A stretch of DNA of 64,000 nucleotides from Neelides folsomi (lineage: Eukaryota > Arthropoda > Collembola > Neelipleona > Neelidae), in the NCBI GenBank assembly GCA_034687125.1, contig JAQGBZ010000033.1, positions 1-64,000 on the forward strand. Direction: 5' to 3'. Numbering within the stretch: position 1 is the first letter of the stretch; every line of letters starts with the position of its first letter. The notes beneath the pieces were generated by a model. It ran no database searches, was not told the DNA's origin, and saw only the letters and a list, made by a program, of their open reading frames with translations. The position numbers and the translations under genes were made by a program. Of the stretch, positions 132 to 59,919 are shown one piece after another.

Positions 132-3100
132 AGTCTGGAAGGTTAGTTGCAACCAATACAAAGCGAGGATGGTCCAAGAGAGTAATGGTCGTAAGTGGAA
201 ACGATGTTGGACTAAAGGGAGAAATCATGTATTTCATTCGTCTCCACAATTACAACAAAATGAGCACGAAGAACATCAACGACGAAGTTTTCTTTGGAAC
301 TCTCGACTTAAAGGACCCAGATGAACCAGGAACAATTATAGACACCGTAGTCTATAATTTGTCCAAAATCTATTTAGAAAACTTGAAGGCGAGCACAAAT
401 TGGGTTCCACTTCTCGATCCAGAATTAGCATCTCGTGTTCGGCTCAAGTTTATCACTTCAATTGAACATTACGCTAACTTTTTGCAAGGTAATAAATATA
501 CAATCATTATTTTCTTATAAAGACTATTGGGAACACATTAAGGGTGCTCGTAATGATTAATGTTTTATGGGATTTATACAGAGTCTCGGAATGATATTGG
601 GAGCAGGTTAGACCTGAGAGCCATTTCCGACATGGACGAAGTGATGGATAAATTGAAGAGTTCTGATGAAGTCATTGAGGCGGCAAAGAACCCTGAATTT
701 GTGGTGAAAGTGGAACACACCGTCATTACCTGGTGCAAAAATATTGAGAAAGTCCTTGCTCTCTCCAAGCAAATGAGAAAGGAAACGGACTCAATGGGAC
801 CAATGGCTGAGTTGGCTTATTGGAGAAATTTACTTGCCAAAATGTGCTACATCATACAACAAGTCCAAGAATGGAAATTCATTAATTTGATTCAAGTTCT
901 CATTCATGCAAAGTCAAAAGTTTTAAGAGTAAAATCAATATAATTGCACTCAATTTTTTACCATTTCTAAAATTGAATACCTAATAAACATTTTAAGATG
1001 ATTGCTTGTTAAATATGAATTTAATGGAAATCTTTCAATTCAATTACAGCGATGGCGAGATGTAGATAGCAGGGTGACAGATGAATATCATGAAGCGAAG
1101 GATAATGTTCGCTACATGTACGCTTTGGAAAAGTTCTGTGAACCTTTGTACCAACTTGACCCGCCTGCAATGATTGAGCATATAAGTAGCATGATTTACA
1201 CCATACGAACAATTCACACAACTTCAAGATATTACAATTCTTGTGAGAAAGTCACTGCTCTTATGGTCAAGGTAGGTTGATTTTTACATTTAATTAGTTA
1301 AGTAATTGACTTCAATCAAAATAAATTAAAGAATTGGAAAATTAGAGAATCTCCATAAATATCTAATAAAGTCAAAGTCAGAATTACTTATAATAAATGT
1401 ATTTGAACAGATTAGCAATCAAATGGTAGCAGCTTGCAAACGTTATCTTACAAACGATAACACAGAAACAATTTGGAGCCAAAACAGAAGGATCATGGTT
1501 GACAAGCTAAAGGTATTAACAATAAAAATATTTTTATAAATATTATTAAAATATTTGATCGTAAGTTTCGTAAAGTAATAAATAATTTTTATCAGAAATG
1601 CATTCAACTTTACAATACTTATCGCGGGTGCTATGAACAAACAAAGAAAGAACTTGAAAGCAATTTAGAAGGAAAACGCTTCAACTTTTCTGCTAACCAC
1701 ATATTTAGAAGATTTGAGAAGTTTTGCGAACGACTTAAGAAAGTAAGTCTTTTGTCTCATTCACTCTCATTCCATTTACTTGATTAAAAAAAGTTAGACC
1801 CATTCAAGAGTAAATTTTCTCTAATTCTACTAAATTGACTTTCTTCATAAATATTGTAATAGATCATTGAACTTGTTGAAATGTTCGACATGTATCAATT
1901 TGTTCACGAATCTCATATTGACGGAATTGAAAAAATTTCGTCTCGTATTCGAATGGTTGAGAATGAATTGCTCGAGAAAACCTACGACACGCTCGATTTC
2001 CGAAATCCGAAATTTGATGATGATTATGCAGTGATCAGAGCGGACATTGATGAGATTCAAGAATCGCTCGAGAGATTCATGGATGAGAAAATTGACAATT
2101 GTGCCACTTGCATGCAGGGTCTTGAACTTCTTGAACGCTTTCGAAACTTGAGAAATAGATGTTTGGACATTGAGGGGAAAGAATGGTAACTAATATTCCT
2201 CAATACCTAGAAAAATTCTTCTTAATTGGTTTTGTTGATTAAAGGTACTTGTTCCAATTCTACCACAATGAAATCAGTATGCTTAAATCAATTTACGAGA
2301 CAGAAAAGAACGATACTCCTATTCCTAGAGGATTCCCTCCATTCGCTGGAAAGCTTGCATGGAGCAAACATCTTTTTAGGTTTCCTAATTGTATCTATTA
2401 ATATTTATTATGAAGGTTAGTTAAATATTGGTTTATATAATTAATTAATAATATATGGTACATATAATAGGTATTATGCTTTCTGAAATTCTAAATATGC
2501 TCAATAATAAAGGGAACCCAAAAAGATAATATCTAGTATATACTAAACACAAATATTAGTTTAATTGATTATTATTCAATTTATTAGACGACTTGAAAGG
2601 CCTATGCTTTGGTTCCAAGAAAAAACCAAGATATTAGATAAAGATGAAGCGAAACCAACAATTAAGCTTTATAATTCAGTAGCCAAAAAGCTCGTCTTTT
2701 ATGAAATTATCTTCCACGATGGTAAAATTTTAATAATTACAAAATGCATATACAAATTAAATCTTATATATTTATAACTTGGAATTAATTTTATCATTAG
2801 GATGGGTCAAGCAAAGTGCTTCTATTTATGATTCATTGGAAGCTCCAATTTTAACCCTAAGAGGAAATCTCAGACAGGGTACAATAATTAATTATATATT
2901 ATTATAATCGAACAAGACAAACAATCTGACAATTACAATTTCTATTTCGCCAACTAAATAATAAACGTAATATTTTATATACTATTCACATTTGCTTTAA
3001 AGTAAATATTGTTCTATATAATTATCAGAACTCGTCCTGAATTTCGACCCCTTTTTCCGTCAAATAATCGATGAGACTGAAATAATCAGGAAAATGGATC

Positions 3101-6100
3101 TATCAATCCCAGATCACTGTCTCATCACTTATTACAAACAAGACAAGTTGTTCGAGAAATACGAAAAGATCAAAGGTCTCCTTGAGAGATTCCTGACGAA
3201 CAAAGGGAAAATCACGACCGACTTAATGGTCTTGTTCCGTCCCAAGCTGAAGAAGGCAGAAAAGGCCTTCATGCCTGGAATTTCCAATATCAATTGGACG
3301 TCCCTGAAATGCGAAGAATACTTCCAATACATCACTGTCCACCTTGAAGAACTCGAAACCATTGTGGCCAAAGTGAATGACATCATTACCATTCAAATAA
3401 ATCAGTTCCTCTATGAGATATCTCACACCATGATGATCGACTACCCAGAAGTTCCCATGCCTATTGCTGAATACATGGATCGAACCCGCCACTACCAACC
3501 CATCGTTGCAAAAGATTTGGAATACAAGTCAAGGGCATGTGAATCGGCTGTCATTGAATTGATCAATACTTTATTAGCCGTTTGCGAAATTCCCGTTCCT
3601 GATGAACTTCTCTTCCATTGGCTCAACCCGAATATCTTTGATGCGAAAGTGGAGATTAATTTAAAAGATCCAACTCATCATGTCGGAGTGAAGCGAAAGT
3701 TTGATAGAGGTGGGAGAAAGAACGACGAGCTCATTGCTTCCCTTACCCAGAGTCAAAAGGATGAATTGAAAGCAATTCATGAAGAGTGCAGACATGTTTT
3801 CGCATTTTACAGCTCTAAATGCATTGAAGCTCTTCAAAAGGCCACTCGAGTTTCTTTAGACACTTTAAGAAGGCGCACGGAAGAACCACAAATTTCCAAA
3901 AGAAATCCAGAGAAAGTGACCAATAGAATTCCACTCTTTTCGGCTAATCTTGTCTTGACCATTCCTACAATTCAACTCAAGCCCACACTTGAAGACATTC
4001 AGATGATTTTAACAAAGAGTGTTAATATGATTGTAGAATGTCTCAAGCGTGTTGTAATTTGGGGACAAATACGTCGACAGTCTTTTGATGTAAATGCAGA
4101 GGAACCGTTTTATAAAGAACCTGATCAAATTGTCACAGAAGTCGTTCCCTATGCCAGACTTCAAACTGAACATGAGGAACTTACTCGTGGTCCGCAAATG
4201 GATAATTTTAATCCAAAACTCAAAAACTGTTTTAAACCGGTCATGGACTATAAAGGTAAACTGAAAATTACTGCTTTTTATCTAATTTGGACTTTCTACT
4301 AAATTGACTAAATGCGAATAAATATAAATATTTGCAATTACTTATTGTTCTTTTATGTTTTGGTAGATGTGAGCAAAATGATCCTGATGATGCAAACGGC
4401 GTGTATACAAGCAAAATCCAAAGTAAATGTCTTGATTAAAAAATACGTGACATTATTCAGCTATCTCTGGAAGGACACAAAAGATCAGGAGATTAAAGAA
4501 ATTGTGGATAGGAAACCTGTAATTACTGAAATATACGCAATCATGAAACGATATTCAGAAATTGAAGATGAAATCAATGAGATCGAAGGGAACAACCGAA
4601 TTGGTCCCCTTGAAATTGGAGTTGAAGAGCTGAAGCTTGCATTCAATATTGAAGTCAAACAATGGAAAACACAACTTTGCAAACTCCTTAATGAAGACTA
4701 CAAAACGAAGGCAAATGCACTTAACAAGTTCATTGAAGAAGTGAACAAAGATTTGAACCAGCCGATTAGAGATATGAACGACATCCGGGCTCTTATGAAC
4801 ACAATGGAAAGGATCAGAGAGAATTTTAGTGAGCAAGATTCAATCATCCGCCCAATTGAAGAATGCTATGCTTTCCTTGGGTCGCAAAACTATAAAGTTC
4901 CTGAAGATGAGTCAAATAGAGTTGATACTCTCAGATACAATTTTGATAAACTCCAATCCAAGGTAAGTTTTATAAATATTTTTATTTACCGAATGTTTTT
5001 GATTTGATTTTTTATTTGATTTGACAGTCACTAGAAGTCCAACTTAAAATATCGAGCATTCAAGAAGAGAATCGGAAAACACTCATGGAGTCAATTTCAA
5101 AGTTCCGAAGTGATCTCGTTGCATATGCCGCTAAATACAACAGGGCTGGGCCAATGGTCGTTGGAATTCCTCCACAAGAAGCATCTGATAGACTTGTTAG
5201 ATTTTATATTATTCAGTACTTTGTCAATTCAATGAAAGTATTTGTAAAGAATTTATCTCATTATACAAGTATGAATCGATTATTGTAGATAACCTTTCAA
5301 GACGCCTTCGATGAACTTAATGAACGTTACACAATGTGCAACTTCGGAGAAAAACTTTTCGGTCTTCAAGAGTCTGACTATCCATTGCTTAAAAAACTAA
5401 AAACAGAATTAGCTCTTCTTCAAAAGCTTTATGGTCATTAAGAGTTTTGATATTTTAGAGATAAATGTTGTACATTAAAAGTACATGGATCGTTTTTTCA
5501 GTGTTAACAATGTGTATACATTCATAATGAAATTATGATTCATAATATTTCATCCTATATTTAAAGGTTTGTATAACGAGGTTATAAGAAGCATCACTGG
5601 ATACTATGATGTCAAATGGTCAGAAATGGATGTCAAGAAAATTAAAAGTGAATTGACGGTAATAATCAATTCAATATATAATAATATGAACACATTTAAC
5701 ATTATTTAAGTTAAATAAATATTAAGGATTGTATTGTAATCTGACATTCATATTGCTCTTTATAACCGTGGCAGGAATATCAAAATCGTTGCAAAAAACT
5801 TCCAAAGGGACTCCGAAATTGGCCTGCCTATTTAAATCTTAAAAAGAAGATTGATGATTTCTGTGATCTTTGTCCACTCCTTGAGCTCATGGCAAACACA
5901 GCAATGAAAGATCGACATTGGGAAGCTATCAGCGCTATCACCAAATATCCTTTCGATGTCGACAATGAAAATTTCACCTTGAAACAACTTATGGATGCTC
6001 CATTGAAAAAGTTTTATCCACAGGTTGGGAAAAACAAAAATTAAAGTTGAATATAAATCCCAATAATAAACATTTTTCTACTGTAATTTCAATTCCATTT

Positions 6101-6782
6101 TCAATTTTTTAGATTGAAGACATTTGTCTTGGAAGCATCAGGGAACGGGAGATTGAAGGAATCTTGAAGCAATTGGCAGCAGATTGGCTTTTGATCAATA
6201 TGTCACTTGGGCAATATAAATTTAGAGGAGAATTGCTCTTGAAGAAAGAGGAAATGGGCGAAGTGATGAAGGAAGCGAAAAAGGCACTTAAAGCTCTCAA
6301 CGACATTTTCAAAGATAGATACAGTGGGCTTTACAGGACCAAGATCCAACTTGCGATCAACGAATACACAAACACGTTGAAGATACTCGAGTAATATTCA
6401 ATTCTCGCATATAATCCATTTATAAACATTTTATAAAAATGACTTTGATATTTTTGATAATCCTTTAATGGAAAATTTTAATAGACAATGGTTTGTCGTT
6501 CAAAAACAATGGATCTTTTTGGAAGTTGTATTCGGGGCTGGAGGAGATGTATCGAGAGCTCTTCCTCTCGAAGCTAAACGATTCAGAAATGTTGACAGAA
6601 GTTGGGTCAAGTTGATGAAGAGAGCTAAGGAAAACCCCATTGTCCTTCAATGCTGTGTGGGGGATGAAACGATGGCTCAACTCCTTCCGCACATGCATGA
6701 ACAACTCGAGATTTGTCTAGCAACTTTGAGTGGATTCTTGGAACATAAGTACTGGAGTCCAGTTGTTCCAACTCAAAAATGA
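132..6782 (+). CDS. Axonemal dynein heavy chain, DNAH5/DNAH8 type: stem and partial linker only (5' end outside window)
   Basis: Outer-arm dynein heavy chains move cilia and sperm flagella: the stem binds intermediate chains and partner heavy chains, and the linker joins it to the AAA+ motor. Seventeen exons: 132-488, 582-928, 1050-1271, 1411-1512, 1596-1742, 1863-2185, 2245-2379, 2588-2721, 2801-2878, 3029-4255, 4367-4962, 5028-5195, 5289-5433, 5567-5658, 5775-6023, 6113-6390, 6485-6782. All junctions are GT/AG and phases agree, giving about 1,631 residues. Stretches such as [23 protein letters not shown] and [17 protein letters not shown] match DNAH5/8 as I remember it, through DHC_N1 and into DHC_N2. 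Full family members run about 4,600 residues; this one stops at 6782 after ten unaligned residues, with no P-loop, AAA module or microtubule-binding stalk. The first about 110 residues lie upstream. The family call is firm; whether the product is functional is open. Confidence 0.9.
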
Positions 6783-6821
6783 ATTCTCATTCAAATCCTT
6801 CTTAAAATTTATATAAAATAT

Positions 6822-6847
6822 AATAAAATTTGGCATTAAATAATAAA
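6822..6847 (+). terminator. Poly(A) signals of the short dynein gene
   Basis: AATAAA occurs at 6822-6827 and again at 6842-6847, 40-65 bases after the dynein stop codon at 6780-6782. This suggests the short message ends here instead of running on to motor exons. The opposite-strand gene VPS26C has TTTATT (AATAAA on its own strand) between about 6890 and 6925, so the two convergent messages probably end within about 100 bp of each other. The hexamers are seen directly; their use is inferred. Confidence 0.5.
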
Positions 6848-6969
6848 CTAATTCGGCTCATAAAAATTGTAATAATTGGCAATAAAGTAATTTATTTAAA
6901 CGAAAATGTTTTATTTATCTTACTTTATTTAAAAGTACAAATAAATATTCTTTAGAAAATTAATAAAAT

Positions 6970-8902
6970 TTAAAATCTAGTTAATTTAATTGGAAAGTTT
7001 TCTGATTTGAAAAAATCGTTGGCAAAAATTACGACAAGGTTGATTTCAAATTCTAAATATAAAAAGAAGTCAAACTCAGTCAATAAATTCGCAATCACAT
7101 TAATACTCATAATGTTTAAGAATCGTAATTTGGTTTTATGATAATTTAAACTGAATAAGAATATAACCGATTTTGAAGTTTGTAGTAGAGAGAGTTGGAC
7201 AAGCGAAAAGTCTCGGGAAAATCATAAAGATTGGAATAGGAAGACCTTTGAAAACGTCTCCATCTCCTATCTGAATAGTTTGAATCTCCGATGCTAAAAT
7301 AGAAATATTTGTAATATTTACACATCTTGTTCTATTATATTTTACGTGAAAGCAAATCCAAACAAACTATCTTTTAAATACTTGTACTTGTTGAAGTAGA
7401 GTTATTAGGAACTACGGTACCATCTTTGGCAAAACCTTCAGCACAGCCACAAGTCTCAACTCTGACAAGTTGCACTTCAATAGATTTGATTGGAAATTCG
7501 CTCTTGTCAATAATGATTTCTCCAGTGAAAGGTTTAGAAATTGGACAAACAAGAGAGTCGATATGACCTGAACAAACAAAACAAGACCTAAGTTTATTAT
7601 ATTATCCAAACTCTCATTATTTTTAAGCTAATTTTAATGAATTTTATGGAATAGAAAATATGAATTTTTATGTGTAGGTAAAAGACCATGTGCCCTGAAG
7701 AAACCAAGTTTTGTTCCAATTTCACTCATCATCTCAAATCCAATTCGCTTCATATCTGCAGGTGTGAAGAGATCAAGGGAAGGAGAAGGAGGAATCTGCT
7801 GACCAGTGGGAGGACTCTGTCCATATTCAATAATAAACTCCGTCGTCTTTGCTAAACTATTTCCAATGAGGAATGAACGCTTGATCTCACATTTCAAACT
7901 ATATTGGACATTGATGAAAACACCTAAATCCATATAGAAAAAGATAAAACTTTCATTAAAAAAATATTCTAATAATCTCAGTAACAGTAACACCAATAGC
8001 ATACTCTCGCCGTGACGTCTCGCCTCGTTCAACGACGCGAGTTGATTATTTTAATATAAACAATTAACTATAATAATAAATAGGTAGTATAATATCAACA
8101 AAATTACAACCAACCGTGGTAAGTTTCATATAAAATTCTGTTATATTTGGCCTTTAGAGGAGCCTCAAATGAAATCTCTGTTTTTCCGCCTGCTAACTTC
8201 CCAGCTTTCACTAAATCAACTTGAAATGATAAAAGTTGAATGGGCTGTAAAACGTTATAGAACCTCGATTAAAACTGAATAAAGAACGTCGTTTCAGATA
8301 TTTTGTTAATTATTGTACATACTTTAACGGATTGATAAAATGACTCGAATATTCCAACAGTCTTTGCGCTCAGCTATATTTCAAATATTAACAATAAGCT
8401 CATAAAGTAACAGTAAGGAGACATTGACATATAATTATGAGTAAAATATTTGGTAATAAAGATATAAATCATGGCGTAATAAATACAAACAATCTGTAAC
8501 AGACTGAAAGTTTTTATCTATATTTAACTAGTTTAATAAAACAAGCATCCCATCATTAAAATCAAAATTTAAATACCTGAAGGTTGACTTGTCCCTCCAT
8601 GCTTAACCTGAAATATATTTGATATTTAAAAAAAACACTCTTTTAACCTCCTTTATTAACCTTCTTAATAAACTATTAAGTAATTAATATTTTAAACTTA
8701 CACAATGCCATCATGTTTCAGTTCATTTTTTGATGAAATTGTAACAATTCCTCGAATAATTTCCTGAAAATACAAATATAATAATTATTCATTTGTTACA
8801 AATAAAACTGTATAATTCTTGGATTAATTATATAAATTAACTCACATTTTCATTATAAACTTTACAATGTCGATTAAGGCGAACATCTAGAGTGATAACC
8901 AT
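6970..8902 (-). CDS. VPS26C: VPS26C, arrestin-fold subunit of the Retriever cargo-recycling complex
   Basis: VPS26C (DSCR3) joins VPS35L and VPS29 in Retriever, which with the CCC and WASH complexes returns membrane cargo from endosomes to the surface. Nine exons on the minus strand: 8846-8902, 8702-8763, 8577-8607, 8323-8373, 8115-8244, 7687-7923, 7421-7567, 7168-7293, 6970-7052. They join in phase to 307 residues, close to the 297 of human. Diagnostic runs include MEGQVNLQLSAKTVGIFESF, LYETYHGVFINVQYSLKCE, VQLVRVETCGCAEGFAKD and FMIFPRLFACPTLSTTNF, which separate it from VPS26A/B. The start at 8902 is the first ATG and fits the family N-terminus. The gene is convergent with the dynein fragment and divergent from MAX. 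Confidence 0.95.
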
Positions 8903-12905: not shown

Positions 12906-15900
12906 ATGGGAAGAGATCGAGATCATGGGAATAGTCGGGATAGAGATCGGGATTACAGCAATAACCGGGAAAGAGACCGTGGTGATCGATCTCATCATAA
13001 TAGGAGGGATGATAGGAATCCAAGAGAAAATAATAGAGACCGACATGATGATCGAAGAAATCCGTCCTCTTCAAATTATCAACAGAGATCTCATCAAGGT
13101 TCGTCGTATCAGAATTCCTATCAAAATTCGTCCCATCAAAGTGGCAGAGGTCAAGGGGGCAGTTATATAGGTGGAAATTCATACAATGATTATTCGCTTT
13201 TGACGCCTCCTGGAGTGCCAATGATGCCGCCTGGAGTGTCAATGATGCCACAGATGGGAATGGGTCCACCTGGAACTGGACATTCTTATGGAATGGACCC
13301 ACAACAAATGGCATATCAGCTCCAGCAGCAAATAATGATGTCCCAGCTCCAAACGCAACAAGCCCATGCAGGTGGATACAATCATGTTCCATGGGGAATG
13401 CAAAATCAAATGGGCCGACAAGGAAATTACCAAGACTCACGATCAAGAGGGATGAGAGACGAAAGAGATCGAAGAGACCAATATAGGGATCCTGAAGAAC
13501 ATCATAGACAAATGGAAGAACACAGGTTTAAATCAATAAATAATTAAAATCAATTTGATCATATTTGATATATTTTAACATCTTAAATTATTTAAATTCA
13601 AGATTGAGAGTGACTCGAGAATGCCCAGGTGCAACTTTCGTTGAAGAAGTGAATCTTCCTCCAGAATACGCATTTTGCATTGATACTAAACCCGATCATT
13701 CATTGTTGAATCTTAAGACTCTTCCGAACAATCAGAAGCCTGCATTTTATAAAGATTATTTCGAACAATGTGCGTTGGGTGCTTCGCCAGATGAACTCGC
13801 CTTGTTAGCGAAGATTTATAAAAGACCAATGCATCTCCCACCACCTGCAATTGATGAAGATGGAAATCCAACTGATCCCTCCATAAGAGCAGAAGACAAT
13901 TTGAGAAAGAGACGTCGTGAAGAGGAAAGCGGAAAGACGCAGGAGAAGGAAAAAGATGTAATTTCATTGGAAGGAGCCACTAACCCCAAACGGCCCTTTG
14001 CAGAATTCATTGGATTTGATAAGGGGTTAAAAAATCCTAAAGTTTTCGATCAAACGAAAAGAAGGGACGATGGATCTATGCGAGATAAGGTTGAGTCATA
14101 CAATTCTCGATTGGCCAAAGATCCAAAGAATGTTGCTCTGTGGAAAGAGTTCGTCATTTTTCAAGACGAATATTTTAAAGAAAGCAACCGTCAAGAAGAA
14201 GAGATGATTAATCAGGCGAAAAGATCAAAAAGGGATGGGAAAATCAAGGGAAATAAGAAAAGGCTGATTGAAAAGAAAATTGCAATTCTGGAAAAAGCTT
14301 TGGGTAATCATTAAATAATTATTTTCAAACTTGTTTTTATAAATAATTTTTAATGTTTTAATTTAATTCTAAAATATTTAAATTATAACTCGGTATAGGT
14401 AAGTTAATATATTAATTGGAACTAAAGGTAAATATGTTTGTAGAAGCAAATCAGAACAACGTTGAATTAAATCTGGATAGGATGTTTTTCATGAATGAAA
14501 TTAACAAACCAGAGAATGTTCTTACAAGTTGGAGAGATTTGGTGAATTGCAATCAACAAATTGCCACATTCTGGGACCAATATTTACTTTATACTGCCAC
14601 ACAACTTGGAGTTTTTAAATCATCAACAGCTACTGCTGGATTCCTCAAATGTTTCAAAAAATTCCGAATGATGCTCAATGACAATTTCCCCGAATTTCAA
14701 AGACCAAAGAAGTTTCATCTTCTCGCTTCCGATCTCTTCTTAGGATTTACTCTCGTACTCAAAAATGCTGGATTTATAGAGAAAGCCACGGCAATTCATC
14801 AAGGACAACTCGAAATGGACTTTTATTTTCCTGAAAATATGAAGGAAAATAACCAAAATGAGATTGAAAACGCCTTCGATAAATTTTGGGACGAAGGTTC
14901 TGCACGATTTGGAGAACCAAATTCACCTGGATGGTGTAATTTGATGTCAGTTGAAAATTATACCACATTAACTCTTGGTGAAACTGGAAGTAAGTTACAA
15001 ATTCAAATATATTTAAATGTAATCTACTTATCTATTTATTTATTATGTATTCATGCGTTGTTTTGTGATATTGGGAAATTGTGAACACTGGATATGTTTA
15101 ATTAAAATACTGTTAATTTATTCAGTTTCAGACTTCGAATTTAAATACTTCCAGAGTTGTATTGAAAACAAAGAGATCATAGGGCCAGATGGAAAATTGA
15201 AACATTGGTTGGCCATTGAATCCTTCAGAAGCAAAATGCAGTGGCTTCCATGGAGGGCCAATTGCTCAGATAAAGATGAAATTGATGATTCTCAGCGTAT
15301 GGTTCTTTCTATCGAAGTGACTCCTTTCTTAATAAGATATCCAGAAGAGTCAAAGATTTTTAGCGAAAATGAAAAAAATGCAATTTCATTCCGCCACGTT
15401 CTCAATTTCATTCTCGTTCTCCAGGAAGATTTCCTCACCAGAACTCATACACTTGAGTTCATTATTTCCTCTTTCTCGTCAATTTCTATATCAGAAATAC
15501 GGAGTTTGTTCACTGAGATTCATTATTGGAAAACATTCAATCATTTTTATCACACAGGAGAAGTGAAATTGAATTCAATTATTCCTCCTGGATTCAAACT
15601 CAACGATTTGCTCAGCTACTCATCAAGTGATGGGAGTTTGGATGATGAGACTTTCTTTCCTAAATATGAACCGCTAATGAACCAAGAAACTACCCAAATT
15701 GCCAAGTTCGTGAAAGAAAATTCCAATAAACGAATTGAAATGATTAGAAACATTTTAGTGAGAAGTTTGGATCATTTGAGTCCCCAATTTGCAAGCTTGT
15801 TAACGAGGATATATCTCCGATTTGAGCAGAAAAATACCTTTGGGAATATTGAAGATGTGCGGAAAACTATCAAGTTCTCAAAGAATCTCTTGAAACATGA

Positions 15901-17637
15901 TAAATTGAAAAATTCGAGCGAATTGTTCGGAGAAATCGCACTTTTGGAGCATTTTGCCGGGAAACGAGTCAAAGCCACTGTTCTTTTGACAAAAACTGTC
16001 AATTTAGGAGGAAATTTCCTATCTGCGATTGACATCTCTGTTTCGAATGATTGGCTTGCGACTAACTGGGCAATTGTTGCTGACATCACACGACTCTACA
16101 GGATTCTTGCTGAATTCCACTTGAAAGATGATATGAAAAAAGCTGCAAAGGTCTTGACAGCTTTAGGAAATAATTTCCAATCTGTTAACCTTGAAGGAGA
16201 CGAGAAGCCGAAATCCACTGAGATATTAAAAGCCCGGAGAGTCTTTGAGAAGCTTTTTAACGAGCTCCTTTCACTTGATTTTTCTATTAAGCACACGAAC
16301 AAATTCGACAATGAATTAACGCTCCATACTTTTGGTGGCGAACTGTGTGTGGAAACTCTTGTACAAATTCCGAACCTATTGGTTGAATGGACAACTGCTT
16401 ATGCTCTTTTTCAGTATTTAACTGTTGACTATACCAGTGCTAATGAAGTGTTCGCTAAAGTCATTTCAACTATTAAAATCGAAGATGAGTTAACTAGGAT
16501 AACAAAATACGATGCTGAGATTGTGAAGTAAGTGCATATTAGGATTTTTGTTTTTAAACTTTTTTTAAAACTTTAATTTGTTTAATTAAATATTTATATG
16601 TTTAATTAAATAAGTTTGTGATAAAGGATTTTCATGTATTTATAATAGTATTAAAAACATACGTGAACAAGTTTACCTTGCTTGGTGTAAATTCGGAGCC
16701 TACATCACAACGGTGAACAAGACGGAAAATGCACTTTTCAGAAATACATTACATGCTGCTTTGCTTGAGTTTCCTTCAAGTCCACCGCTGCTACTTTTAT
16801 TTGTGGATATTGAGGTAAGCAAATCTTATGAATAAAATCCCATCCTATTTAAATATTTTTAATCGAATTTTCATATGATTGGTAATTTATTAAACATGAT
16901 GATTGATGACGTGATGATTGATAACTAACAATGGGCTGTTTTAATTTAATTTCAGAATCAATTTACGATCATTGGAAAACTCTGGCGCTTGATGATGAAT
17001 TACATCAAACAAGAAGGGAAAAGAACATCGATGATTTGCAATTTTTGGGGCCCGACTCTCATGGCATTAGGTTTAGCTAGAAAAATCGAAGAGATGGACC
17101 AGGAGGGTGATTTGGCCCTTGAACAATTCGGATTGGGTTAGATAAAATTTTAATACATAATAATATGTAAGTTAATAATTTCTTCAGTAAATTATAATGA
17201 CCAATTTAATCATGCTTTTATGAATTCGTGATTTTACAGGCGGCCCTTCAGTTACTCTTGACACCTTCTTTTACAAGCTTGATTCCCTTCTTACTGCCGC
17301 TGAAGAAAATCCACTCATCAGACATTCGCCTTTGATCTGGAGAATTCATTTGAAGTTGATGGCACTTCGTGTGAAAGAAACAAAGGATAACAAGGATAAG
17401 AAAAAAGCATTTTCAATTTACTACGACGCTATCCGAAACTGTCCATCTGTAAAACTCATTTATATGGACATCATCGCTTACTTTCCAGAGAAATTCAAAG
17501 AAATATATGATGTCATTTCGGAAAAGCAAATTCTCATTCGCCTCCCCATCCAGGAACTGGAACTTCTATTAGAAGAAGAAGATGAAAAGCTTGAAGTCTT
17601 TTCTATTGCTTCTATGAGTGATGGTGAAGTTGAATAG
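12906..17637 (+). CDS. NRDE2: NRDE2, nuclear RNA interference and RNA surveillance factor
   Basis: NRDE-2 acts with small RNAs in nuclear silencing in worms; in mammals NRDE2 binds MTR4 and controls nuclear RNA decay. Exons 12906-13525, 13603-14303, 14444-14989, 15126-16527, 16649-16814, 16956-17136 and 17240-17637 join to 1,337 residues. HAT/TPR-like helical repeats begin near residue 385 (ESYNSRLAKDPKNVALWKEF, IEKKIAILEKALEANQNNVE). The C-terminus (RNCPSVKLIYMDIIAYFPEK, then QELELLLEEED) matches human NRDE2 closely. The first exon is unusual: about 50 residues of RD/DR repeats, then a serine/tyrosine/glycine and Met-Pro-Gln-rich low-complexity tract. The phase of the first junction joins it to the NRDE2 body, so I treat it as one gene. 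Convergent with ZNRD2. Confidence 0.93.
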
Positions 17638-18009
17638 TAATTAAAATTACTAAAATTATTAATTAGGCAGTTTTTTACATTAAAATTTGCTACTGTGTAT
17701 TTAATTAATAAGTACAGAGAAATTTAACTATTTTTTAAATAATAGTATTTGAATAATTTGAATAAAATTAATAAATTACAATTACAGAAAAGTTAATGAA
17801 ATTGTCTTTTTTGTTCATTATGATTTATGAAGTTGACATAAAAAGTAATTTTATTGTATATATATTTATGATTATATTCAAGAAAATTAAGACATTAACA
17901 TTACATAAATTGTTTATTACAATTATTTGAGTATCAGTTCATCGCTTCAGGGTATAACAAAGCTTAATTTAACATTCAAAAGACAGGTAATATTATATTA
18001 TCTAATTGA
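17638..18009. other. Tail-to-tail gap between NRDE2 and ZNRD2
   Basis: 372 bp of very AT-rich sequence holding the 3' ends of the two convergent genes. No open frame, repeat or RNA gene is seen. Confidence 0.5.
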
Positions 18010-22193: not shown

Positions 22194-24595
22194 ATGCGGG
22201 TCACAGCGGCCTTCGTCTTCCTCACATTCCTCCACCTTGCCACTGCGGCCAAAATCCTCATCCTTCATCCCCTCTATTCTGGGTCACATGTGCTCACGCT
22301 GAGGTAAGGACAAGGAACCATCAAGAGCCCATTCAACAGAAACCGTATTTAGGTCTGTGGCAGAAGCCCTTGCTGAACGTGGCCACAAGATCCACATTGT
22401 GAGATGGAAAGATGCTCACATTTTCCCCGCTCAAAGCAATGCCAATATCTCCGTCACAACATTAGCCATGGACAATAGCCACGGTCAATATGCCTTCCTC
22501 ACTCAAGAGGCTCAAGCTGCCTTTCAAGTAAGTCATATTCTCATAAATACAGATAAATAATAAAATAAAAATCATACTCTATGTAGAGAATCTTCCTATG
22601 GACGGATTTAATAGAATTAGTAATGTGGAATAAAAAGGACGATGATTCAATGAAAATGCCCACTTTGAGAAAAACATTATCTAACATTAAGTCTAACGTA
22701 ATAAGTTAAACCAGTTTATTACGCAAAGGTCGTATAGATCAACTTGGTTGTCTGCTGATTACATATTATTATAAGTTATTGTTCATAAATCCTAATTGGA
22801 AAATCTTCTGCATTGGAAGTTTAGAGGTCATGAAAAAGTGCTTACTATTCTATATTTATAAAATTAATTTTTAATTTAAAACAATTCAATTATTTTGAAA
22901 GGTGCCATTTGACATTTTATGGAATTCGGGGCTGACAGCCAAAGCAGTAGTCGACTCATATCGTGCATTTCCCCTCATGGGTGGTCACTGCGACACACTG
23001 TTGGGAAATTCCGAGCTCCGTCGTAAACTTGGGAAGGAAAACTTCGACCTTGCCATCATTGACATCATCTACAACGAGTGCGGACTGGCTCTGCTTCATC
23101 ATCTCAAAGTGGCCACAGTTGGATATTGGGCATTTCCCTTTGCGTCAGGTGAAGCTGACTACACCACGGCCTTCCTCCCATCTTCACACGTTCCAATGTT
23201 CCTCTCAAAACTTGGCCACGAGATGAGCTTTATGGAACGTGTGTTCAATACAGTAATGAAAGCTGGAAGTCATCTCATCATGTGGATCCATTGTTCCATT
23301 GTCAACTCGTATATTCAAAAGCACATTCCTGGGACGCCACATCCAATGGATCTCCTCAAAGACCTCAATGGGATGTTGATCAACACGGATTATTCTCTAG
23401 ATTATCCGAGACTCCTTCCTCCAACTTTTATCAACGTTGGAGGAATGCAAATAAGAGAACCAAGACCTCTTCCTAAGGTAAAATGATTTTCATGAATTTT
23501 TATCTTATTTAAAAATAAAAAGTTTAACAACTCTTTATTTTTAAATAAAGTATTGAGTTTGGCTAATTCACATTGTATTTGCTTTCAGGAAATCAAAGAG
23601 TGGATGGAGAGTTCTGGAGATGAAGGAGTTATTCTTTTTACAATGGGATTCATTTTTAACCCAAAGATTGTGCCGAAGAAACTAGTCAGTGCATTTATGA
23701 ATGCTTTCAGTAGGTTACCTCAAAAGTTTTTAGTCAAATTCGACGGTCCCATTGATTACATTCCACCCAATGTCAAAGTATTTGATTGGATTCCCCAACA
23801 AGATATTTTGGGTAAGAGAAAATAATAAATACAAATTTTTAGAAGTTAAGTAAAGTAATGTGTAAAATCAAAGACTAAATTGCGATTAATTTTATAGCCC
23901 ATCCAAAAACAAAAGTTTTCCTCACACATTGCGGACTTCATGGAGTTATGGAATCTATTTACTACGGCGTTCCAATGGTGGGAATGCCAATTTTCATTGA
24001 TCAAGGAGACGTTTTAATCAAAATGAAAGAAAAGGGAATCGCCGTTGGATTCAATAAAGACAATACAACAAGTGATGAAATCTACGAATCTCTTCGAGAA
24101 GTTCTCTACAATCCAAAGTACAAGAAGAATATCATGATATTGTCGACTCTAATGAGAGATGTGGAAGAAACACCCCTTGACAGAGTTATCAAATTCCTAG
24201 AATATCTCATCCGACATGATGGAGGTGAACATTTGAAACTCAGCAGCAGACATCTCAATTTTATTCAGTATTTCTGTCTCGACACAATTGCATTTTTATT
24301 CGTATCGACCCTCATCGTCCTCTACATCTGGACATTGTGTGTGAAGACAGTCATGAGGAAATTGTTCAATGTTTATTGCAACAGAGAAGAAAACAATAAT
24401 GTTAGCCAGAGTGAGGGATCGACAAGGAGCAAGTTTAGATTTAGGAATTACTTGGGCAAAAGAATTAAATCTCAAAAGAATCCTACTTTGTACAAAAGCA
24501 TTAAATCGTACCAAATTCAGAACACTGTGGCTGACATGACACAATTCAGAGAACCACCCTCGAAATTTTATTCAGAGGAGAAGAAAATATCTTAA
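22194..24595 (+). CDS. UDP-glycosyltransferase (UGT), ER membrane, long cytosolic tail
   Basis: UGTs transfer sugar from UDP-sugars to small lipophilic compounds in the ER lumen, in detoxification, pigment or hormone metabolism. Exons 22194-22303, 22353-22527, 22902-23477, 23589-23811 and 23898-24595 give 593 residues. A signal peptide (MRVTAAFVFLTFLHLATA) leads into AKILILHPLYSGSHVLTLR. The UGT donor-binding signature spans about residues 362-399: HPKTKVFLTHCGLHGV, then YYGVPMVGMPIFIDQGD. One membrane helix lies at about 488-510. The cytosolic tail after it is about 80 residues, basic and Ser-rich, against about 20 in most UGTs, yet it still ends KKIS, a KKxx ER-retrieval signal. Start: the first ATG giving a signal peptide. 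The subfamily and substrate cannot be told from sequence alone. Confidence 0.93.
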
Positions 24596-38969: not shown

Positions 38970-39765
38970 GTGGATTGTCAATAAATGGAGACGTGGGAAT
39001 TCGGGATCGGTGATGAAAGCGACGAAGATGGAATTCAATCTGGGGGAAAACCGAAGAGTCGGGAATCGGGAACGAGAGAACCTGCTGGAATTGCTGGAAG
39101 CTGGAAAAGTAAAAGGGTATATTCGCGGTTCCTGGTTCAAGATATACTGTATACCAAAGGCGGTGGTTTAGGGCTATATAAGGAGACGACTCACTGTGCG
39201 AATTCGGGAAGAAAATTTATATATATCCATTAAAAACTGTTCGTCTGCGAAGACACTAGTTGACTCCGAGATGAACAACTCGCCCTAATTGCCCTTCATC
39301 CACTTCGATACTTATTTAAGAACATGATCATCGCCATTCCCAAGTTGGTGAAACTTCGTCATCACTTTCAAATGTTTTGAATCGATTTTTGTGCGAGGCG
39401 ATCAATTGAATCTAATTGCCTCCCCTTGTTCATCTCTTTTCCTTTCCTTGAGGAACGTGAATCTTCAAGTGTCAAATTATCCTTTTGTGATCATTATTTC
39501 ATATCTCTCTAGATAGCTGTACACAAAGATTTTCCCATTTAGATCAACAGATAGCCGAAATGATTATTTTTATCATTCGAAAGGATCGATCGCTCCGATT
39601 GTTTCTTGAATTCATTCTACGATAAAAGATTGTTGGTGAACATTGAAAGAAAATGTGCAAAATTAAGGACAACACTTAGGTTGAGATCGAATTAGATTAG
39701 CAAGTAAATTCTGAAGTAGGGAAAATATTCCAATACAAATTAATTCAATCATTCCAAACACGAAG
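38970..39765. promoter_or_regulatory. Shared PUS10/WDFY3 upstream region
   Basis: 796 bp between divergent start codons. The PUS10-proximal part (38970-39330) is richer in G+C than the rest. The leader of WDFY3 must lie in the right-hand part. No clear TATA box or E-box was found. Confidence 0.4.
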
Positions 39766-52621
<12,856 letters not shown>

Positions 52622-58786: not shown

Positions 58787-59919
58787 ATGGCTCTTCGTGC
58801 TCTTGTTGGTTGTAAACGTGTAATTGATTATGCAGTTAAAGTAAGCCATAAATCTCATGAGTAAATTTTATAAACGAAATTTAACATTAGACATCATAAA
58901 TACTTATACGCCAGAAAGTTACGAAACAATATTTACCTGTATGGTTAAATAATTTTTTTTAAATTCTAAAGGTTCGAGTAAAACCTGACAAAACAGGCGT
59001 TGTGACCGAAGGGGTCAAACATTCAATGAACCCCTTTGACGAAATTGCCGTTGAAGAAGCAGTTCGTCTCAAAGAGAAGAAAATAGTTTCGGAAATTCTT
59101 GCTGTCTCTTGTGGACCAACTCAATGTCAGGAAACATTGAGAGTTGCTCTTGCCATGGGTGTGGATCGGGCAATCCATGTTGAAGTTCCCCAGGCTCAAA
59201 GCGATTCACTTCAACCAATTCATATTGCGAAAATGTTGTCAAAATTGGCTATAGAGCAAGACGTTAATCTTATAATTCTTGGAAAGCAGGTGCGTGTTTT
59301 AAAATGTTAAAAAGAGTATCGATAAATATGTTTTGATAGTCTTATGGTTAATGAATAATTATCTTTATTTTATTCTTTAAGGCAATTGATGACGATTGTA
59401 ATCAAACTGCACAAATGACCGCAGCTCTTCTGAATTGGCCTCAAGCTATGTTTGCTTCAAAGGTTAATATTCTTAATATTGTATTAAATACATAAATCTC
59501 ATTGTTTTTCGGTATTAAGATTTATAAATTATAAGGTTGAGAAAGACGGTGATAATTTAACTGTGCTTCGTGAAATCGATGGTGGACTTGAAACGATCAA
59601 AGTTAAACTTCCAGCTGTAATTTCCGCCGATTTACGACTTAATCAACCACGATATGCAACTCTTCCAAATATTATGAAGGCTAAAAAGAAGCCTCTCGAA
59701 AAGAAGACTCCTGCTGATTTAGGAGTGGATATAACTCCTCGACATGACGTAATTTCATTTTATAAGTATTTTTGTAACTCGTAAATTAAGATTGATTTTT
59801 CACAATTTTAAAAATTTTAGGTCATATCTGTCGAAAATCCTCCAACAAGAGAAGCAGGTGCCAAAGTTGCAGATGTTGATGAATTAATAAGCCGACTTAA
59901 AGCTTTGGGAAGAATATAA
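58787..59919 (+). CDS. ETFB: Electron transfer flavoprotein beta subunit
   Basis: ETFB pairs with ETFA in the mitochondrial matrix, binds AMP and helps hold FAD, and passes electrons from acyl-CoA dehydrogenases to ETF-QO. Five exons, 58787-58840, 58972-59289, 59382-59462, 59536-59748 and 59821-59919, give 254 residues (human 255). Diagnostic runs are [40 protein letters not shown], the nucleotide-site region around [20 protein letters not shown], and [20 protein letters not shown], which contains the dehydrogenase-recognition loop. The N-terminus lacks a cleavable presequence, as is normal for ETFB. No ETFA gene is in the window. Start: the only ATG fitting the family N-terminus. Confidence 0.97.

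Follow-up and report, generated by a model that had tools for sequence, protein, structure and literature searches.

The contig JAQGBZ010000033.1 of the collembolan Neelides folsomi (assembly GCA_034687125.1, 75.1 Mb in 840 contigs) opens with a gene for an outer-arm dynein heavy chain that seems to end before its motor. We analysed bases 1–64000 of this contig (345,861 bases, called C33 in the following), and this whole stretch is referred to as the window. The exon borders of the gene were picked by eye and then checked by a script, giving 17 exons on the plus strand at 132–6782 with GT and AG at the ends of all 16 introns; the joined exons make up 1,631 stop-free codons followed by a TGA at 6780–6782. 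An earlier note, made from the sequence alone, had described 17 exons with standard splice sites in this span, and the exons, the splice sites and the 3' end all hold. The start does not, as position 132 opens mid-codon behind an acceptor and base 1 of the window is the end of the contig, so that the gene begins off the contig. From the alignments to the chains 9fqr_I3 and DNAH5 we estimate that about 100–225 N-terminal residues lie there.

In the predicted protein Pfam finds DHC_N1 at residues 161–712 (453.5 bits) and the linker profile DHC_N2 at residues 1312–1621 (240.4 bits), the latter covering profile positions 1–308 of 403, which leaves the linker incomplete at about three quarters. The best match among chains of solved structure is 9fqr_I3 (4,730 amino acids, 1,164 bits, query residues 2–1621), whose entry is labelled CFAP57 and which we take to be DNAH8 and call DNAH8-like. 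It is followed by DNAH5 from 8j07 (1,104 bits, query residues 15–1621 against DNAH5 111–1710) and then by the Chlamydomonas gamma chain. The homology ends at FLEHK, which corresponds to DNAH5 1706–1710 (..GYLEKK) and lies directly before the FPRF segment; ten residues without a match follow and then the stop. On these matches the protein is classed as a DNAH5/8 (gamma)-class stem with about three quarters of a linker, in agreement with the class and with the stem and most of a linker proposed before. The scores hint at a closer relation to DNAH8, with low support in the tree. A one-residue insertion in a linker loop (VFGAGGD) was considered as a diagnostic mark and dropped, because the length of this loop differs among dyneins.

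The absence of a motor after the stem, also claimed in the earlier note, was found again in the searches. Profile searches of the contigs, which score the best candidates only, gave no match to AAA_6, MT, Dynein_C or Dynein_heavy on C33. The window was also searched with 226 open reading frames of at least 50 amino acids from the available motor stretches of eight other dynein genes (not from every exon), and the best E value of 0.006 is at chance level for this number of queries, so that no downstream motor remnants were seen. Bases 5900–7300 match the assembly only at the window itself, and no haplotig or second copy running on into a motor was found with them. Using the 1,493-residue motor of the gene on contig C500 as query we found no second DNAH5/8 motor in the assembly among the 31 of 71 candidates scored; within this scope the genome-wide check for DNAH5/8 motor exons past the linker, which had been suggested in the earlier note, returned none besides those of C500 itself.

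DHC_N2 is present on ten contigs (C122, C66, C674, C399, C117, C500, C44, C33, C453 and C335), and AAA_6 on all of them except C33 and C335. Each of the eight AAA_6 genes possesses its own linker with the FPRF segment, so none of them is an orphan motor starting where the window gene ends. The gene on C500 shows 620 bits to human DNAH5 in its linker (401 residues) and 226 bits in the stem region N1 (436 residues), also matches the AAA_6, stalk, AAA6 and C-terminal profiles and by sequence is DNAH5-class with every main part present. A recent duplication of this gene as the origin of the window gene was rejected, as their identity (26.1% in N1, 46.1% in the linker) is lower than that of the window gene to human DNAH5 and the DNAH8-like chain. 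The gene on C674 is of the DNAH3/7/12 type. From the P-loop motif we take C117 as DNAH9/11/17-type, C66 as DNAH2, C44 as DYNC2H1 and C399 as DNAH3/7/12-type, and C122 is presumably DYNC1H1, judging from its linker and long exons. On C453, at about 30.5–42.6 kb, lies a heavy chain that is strongly diverged, with an AAA1 P-loop of altered sequence (GPPGTGKTE) and weak stalk and AAA6 matches.

These findings bear on the possibility, listed in the earlier note, that the window gene is one half of a split gene, in which case the motor would come from another gene and the two halves would be joined as proteins or by trans-splicing. Passages of PMC4540427 describe such a split heavy chain in basidiomycete fungi (dhc1 and dhc2 in Schizophyllum, dyn1 and dyn2 in Ustilago). 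The fungal system shares with ours a natural gene for the N-terminal part of a heavy chain only, but there a separate gene supplies the motor of what is a cytoplasmic chain, whereas here axonemal classes are concerned and no orphan motor was found. Since all AAA_6 genes have their own FPRF linker, since the C500 query revealed no further DNAH5/8 motor among the 31 of 71 candidates scored in this assembly with gaps, and since two different classes, including the chain described next, would each need an undetected motor gene, we regard a split gene as quite improbable.

A second heavy chain of this kind is located on C335, where DHC_N2 is matched at profile positions 1–306 of 403 and no match to AAA_6, MT, Dynein_C or Dynein_heavy was obtained among the best candidates. 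Its last six exons (14996–17670) have GT and AG borders and give 650 codons before a stop. The protein reaches 153 bits to 9d2f_U, aligning to DNAH1 780–1305, and two further DNAH1 chains rank next with alignments that extend about five residues more, so that by sequence the chain is DNAH1-class; the open frames upstream are presumably the remaining DNAH1 N-terminus, judged by eye. The profile match ends at column 306 as compared with 308 on C33, and in the alignments the end falls on the column of the window gene or about five residues beyond it. Two breaks no more than five columns apart would have a chance of about 0.2% if breaks were uniform over about 4,600 residues. By eye, an intron lies within about five codons of the break column in two of the eight AAA_6 genes (C500 and C44), so that both breaks may have arisen by read-through into an old intron, which could raise this chance; otherwise, the column may mark the place where the linker begins packing on the ring. 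The GC content at third positions of the C335 gene is 0.373 as against 0.197 in its introns. With 26 identities to DNAH1 in a counted stretch of 100 residues the gene is far diverged, yet its frame is still open, which suggests a long history under constraint for the motorless genes in this genome.

The gene on C335 is also important for judging whether the missing motor is an artefact of assembly or annotation, with motor exons of the true gene absent or wrongly joined at about 6700–7000. The assembly does lose dynein sequence: the gene on C674 runs off its contig and neither stalk nor AAA6 was found by profile, and no Dynein_C match was obtained among the best candidates on C117 and C453. 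Two further contigs, C159 and C224, end in near-identical DNAH3/7/12-type C-terminal exons (one difference in a stretch of 32 residues), representing either a recent duplicate or unmerged haplotypes, and the middle part of this gene was not found. As orphan C-terminal ends for the window gene these tails were rejected, because by their tail motif they are of the DNAH3/7/12 type and not DNAH5/8. Moreover, the window itself starts at a contig end. The 3' end of the window gene, however, is not at a contig end, as C33 runs 339 kb further and the 57 kb inspected carry ordinary genes; the region has a single match in the assembly and the stop precedes any possible join. The C335 gene breaks off at almost the same column, and the next gene seen past it on the plus strand, about 4.9 kb on, is for an SMC-type ATPase and starts at about 22.6 kb. 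A misjoin is unlikely because both genes would need one, and we consider an artefact very improbable. The features are collected in Table 1.

Table 1. Exons of the window gene, features following it on C33, and the related gene on C335.
Feature	Position	Strand	Remark
Exon 1 of those on the contig	132–488	+	Opens mid-codon; acceptor gtaattttag/AGTCT, donor CAAG/gtaata
Exon 2, DHC_N1 start	582–928	+	
Exon 3, DHC_N1	1050–1271	+	
Exon 4	1411–1512	+	
Exon 5, DHC_N1	1596–1742	+	
Exon 6, DHC_N1	1863–2185	+	
Exon 7, DHC_N1	2245–2379	+	
Exon 8	2588–2721	+	
Exon 9, DHC_N1	2801–2878	+	
Exon 10, DHC_N1 end and mid stem	3029–4255	+	
Exon 11, mid stem	4367–4962	+	DYH2-5-8 coiled coil slightly under its cut-off (Pfam)
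Exon 12	5028–5195	+	
Exon 13, DHC_N2 (linker) start	5289–5433	+	
Exon 14	5567–5658	+	
Exon 15, linker	5775–6023	+	
Exon 16, linker	6113–6390	+	
Exon 17, linker	6485–6782	+	To FLEHK, ten unmatched residues, TGA stop
First three AATAAA after the stop	6822–6886	+	Weak evidence, 81% AT
Next gene	7200–8900	-	By eye
UDP-glycosyltransferase gene	22899–24595	+	One open reading frame, Pfam
Large BEACH-domain gene	39715–52368	+	Extent by eye; one open reading frame, Pfam
Electron transfer flavoprotein gene	58963–59310	+	One open reading frame, Pfam
DNAH1-class motorless gene (C335)	about 10.2–17.67 kb (contig stretch 7622–24203)	+	Last six exons checked

A third explanation is a recent truncation, in which a deletion or rearrangement removed the motor and what is left, on its way to a pseudogene, has not decayed yet. 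No broken frame or splice site was found in the window gene, with all 17 exons open and all 16 introns bordered by GT and AG. In a decay simulation with substitutions only, 82, 23, 1 and 0 out of 300 copies of the coding sequence stayed stop-free at 0.5, 1, 2 and 3% neutral divergence. The lack of pseudogene-type breaks in nearly 5 kb of coding sequence, pointed out before, is borne out, and a recent truncation would need neutral drift of about 1% or less. The GC content at third positions of the window gene is 0.406 as against 0.213 in its introns, and a long exon elsewhere in the window (44740–47697) shows 0.362.

To compare stem and linker, the identities of the window gene and of C500 to DNAH5 and the DNAH8-like chain were determined. 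In N1 (403 columns) the window gene shows 36.2–37.5% and C500 30.8–32.5%, and in the linker (347 columns) 49.6–50.7% and 63.4–65.7%, respectively. The mean difference, window gene minus C500, is +5.2 points in N1 (95% interval 0.4 to 10.0) and -14.4 points in the linker (-19.6 to -9.1), and the order of stem and linker was reversed in none of 5,000 bootstraps. Among the 176 N1 columns that are equal in DNAH5 and DNAH8, 43 are kept by the window gene alone and 24 by C500 alone; for the 240 such columns of the linker the numbers are 19 and 65 (Fisher p 3.8e-7 for N1 versus linker). Where the Chlamydomonas gamma chain is equal as well, the window gene retains 62 of 95 N1 columns as against 55 for C500, and 98 of 139 linker columns as against 119. 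Terminal branches for N1 and linker, quoted for the topology in which the window gene is sister to C500, are 0.39/0.23 for DNAH5, 0.42/0.24 for DNAH8-like, 1.29/0.35 for C500, 0.85/0.81 for the window gene and 0.96/0.97 for Chlamydomonas gamma, and unlinked branch lengths fit better than proportional ones on all three topologies (twice the log-likelihood difference about 50). This pattern supports, without being decisive, a relaxation of constraint in the linker but not in the stem.

Such long-standing extra divergence of the linker does not agree with the small amount of drift that a recent truncation allows. Nor would fresh decay be expected in the C335 gene, so far from DNAH1 and yet open, or at nearly the same column in two classes. 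According to passages of PMC6367277, DNAH8 (kl-3) and DNAH1 are sperm-linked in the animals studied. Provided that the window gene is DNAH8-like, the absence of both motors would be in keeping with sperm that had become immotile. Altogether we regard a gene on its way to decay as unlikely, though it deserves serious consideration. The recent rearrangement proposed in the earlier note is less likely for the same reasons, as both the region-specific divergence and the near-identical break in a second gene point to an older and repeated event.

We therefore favour, with modest confidence, the stem-only chain, the best fitting among the three options of the earlier note: the window gene is probably a motorless outer-arm heavy chain of the DNAH5/8 (gamma) class that has been retained for its stem. 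Several points weigh against it. The first exons lie off the contig, leaving start codon and promoter outside the sequence, and the gene is known here from the genomic sequence of a single species, in an assembly that does lose pieces of dynein genes (stalk and AAA6 on C674, Dynein_C on C117 and C453). The crossover between stem and linker comes partly from the fast N1 of C500 (branch 1.29 versus 0.85), the window gene leads in the stem by a small margin (5.2 points), and the placement of both genes in the tree has a support of only 40–63. Nor does the window gene stand alone in its linker rate, since N1 and linker rates are equal in Chlamydomonas gamma, too (0.96/0.97). Because of the unusually fast C500 N1 and the matching Chlamydomonas ratio, the relaxation test can be taken as supportive but not as decisive.

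The title of Liu et al. 2008, as cited in PMC11496786, calls the Chlamydomonas mutant oda2-t partially functional. Passages of PMC11496786 describe oda2-t as being without the gamma motor domain and oda4-s7 as being without the beta motor domain, while one passage instead says that oda2-t lacks the gamma chain. The window gene resembles oda2-t in its class (gamma, equivalent to DNAH5/8) and in having the stem but not the motor; oda2-t, however, is a laboratory mutant, whereas the window gene is natural, has a diverged linker and is accompanied by a parallel DNAH1-class case. Among full-length chains, its homology over about 1,620 residues of stem and linker is to DNAH5 and DNAH8-like, which with 4,624 and 4,730 amino acids in their PDB chains possess an AAA ring, stalk and C-terminal domain, unlike the window gene. 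These parts are also found in the fly chains kl-3 and CG9492. As in Drosophila, two gamma-class genes are present here, but only the DNAH5-class gene on C500 is complete. Passages of PMC6367277 give kl-3 (DNAH8) as testis-exclusive and CG9492 (DNAH5) as antenna-exclusive in the text, with 'Ch + Testis' in the kl-3 row of its Table 2. They also describe the animal outer arm as two-headed, with one gamma-class and one beta-class chain, and Drosophila as being without a DNAH1 orthologue (PMC6367277). The C335 chain aligns to DNAH1, the heavy chain of inner arm d, but differs from it in being strongly diverged and without a motor match.

Directly behind the window gene AATAAA occurs at 6822, 6842, 6881, 6940, 6962 and 7082. 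The signals close to the stop mentioned in the earlier note are thus present, but they are weak evidence because the 318-base stretch is 81% AT and about two are expected from shuffled sequence as compared to the six seen. The neighbouring gene on the minus strand starts, by eye, a few hundred bases past the window gene; we take it to resemble VPS26C/DSCR3, and one fragment of it gave no Pfam match. Elsewhere in the assembly, the mitochondrial contig C742 (15157 bp) reads TGA as tryptophan, with 12 TGA codons in the counted COI stretch, and has its genes ND2-COI-COII-ATP8/6-COIII-ND3 in an ancestral-looking order, all on one strand. Between COI and COII a tRNA-Leu(UUR)-like stretch was seen by eye, and ARAGORN (bacterial code) gave no tRNA there. 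The order and this stretch point to a pancrustacean. The insect receptor family 7tm_6 had only three profile matches of 25 to 36 bits (cut-off 25.8), which speaks against an insect.

How might a motorless gamma-class chain work? The stem encoded in the window would pair with the DNAH9/17-class chain on C117, assigned by its motif, and with intermediate and light chains, and by analogy with the oda2-t gamma chain it would occupy the outer-arm place on the doublet without a power stroke. The resulting arm would have one head (of the C117 type) rather than two or only a structural role; its place would probably be in sperm or some other modified axoneme, and C500 would serve those cilia that still need the motor. 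The truncation would not be fresh but old enough for the linker to have lost constraint, the stem keeping it. The DNAH1-class gene on C335 would be the parallel inner-arm case, and the presence of this second motorless chain in the same genome suggests that such tails have a structural role for which they are retained. Should the window gene be DNAH8-like, both motorless chains fall in sperm-linked classes and the sensory-type gamma chain is complete. The setting of altered or immotile sperm named in the earlier note would be plausible. In a broader picture this lineage would keep a class of motorless structural dyneins: two or more heavy chains of different arms, among them the DNAH5/8-class and DNAH1-class ones, would have been truncated in separate events near a common linker column and preserved, and their unpowered stems would hold arm positions in axonemes, probably in sperm. 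In our view this picture has slightly less than an even chance of being right.

Dynein heavy chains are usually treated as motors with the tail serving the head, and no report of natural motorless or tail-only heavy-chain genes was found in an open-licence library, which also yielded nothing of use on losses of dynein genes in arthropods. If the reading proposed here is true, a natural tail-only gene would mean that selection can act on a function of the tail itself, such as arm assembly, spacing or docking, and alongside oda2-t it would offer a case from nature in which the role of one-headed or headless arms could be studied. The shared break in two classes would then mark the shortest stem that is still stable.

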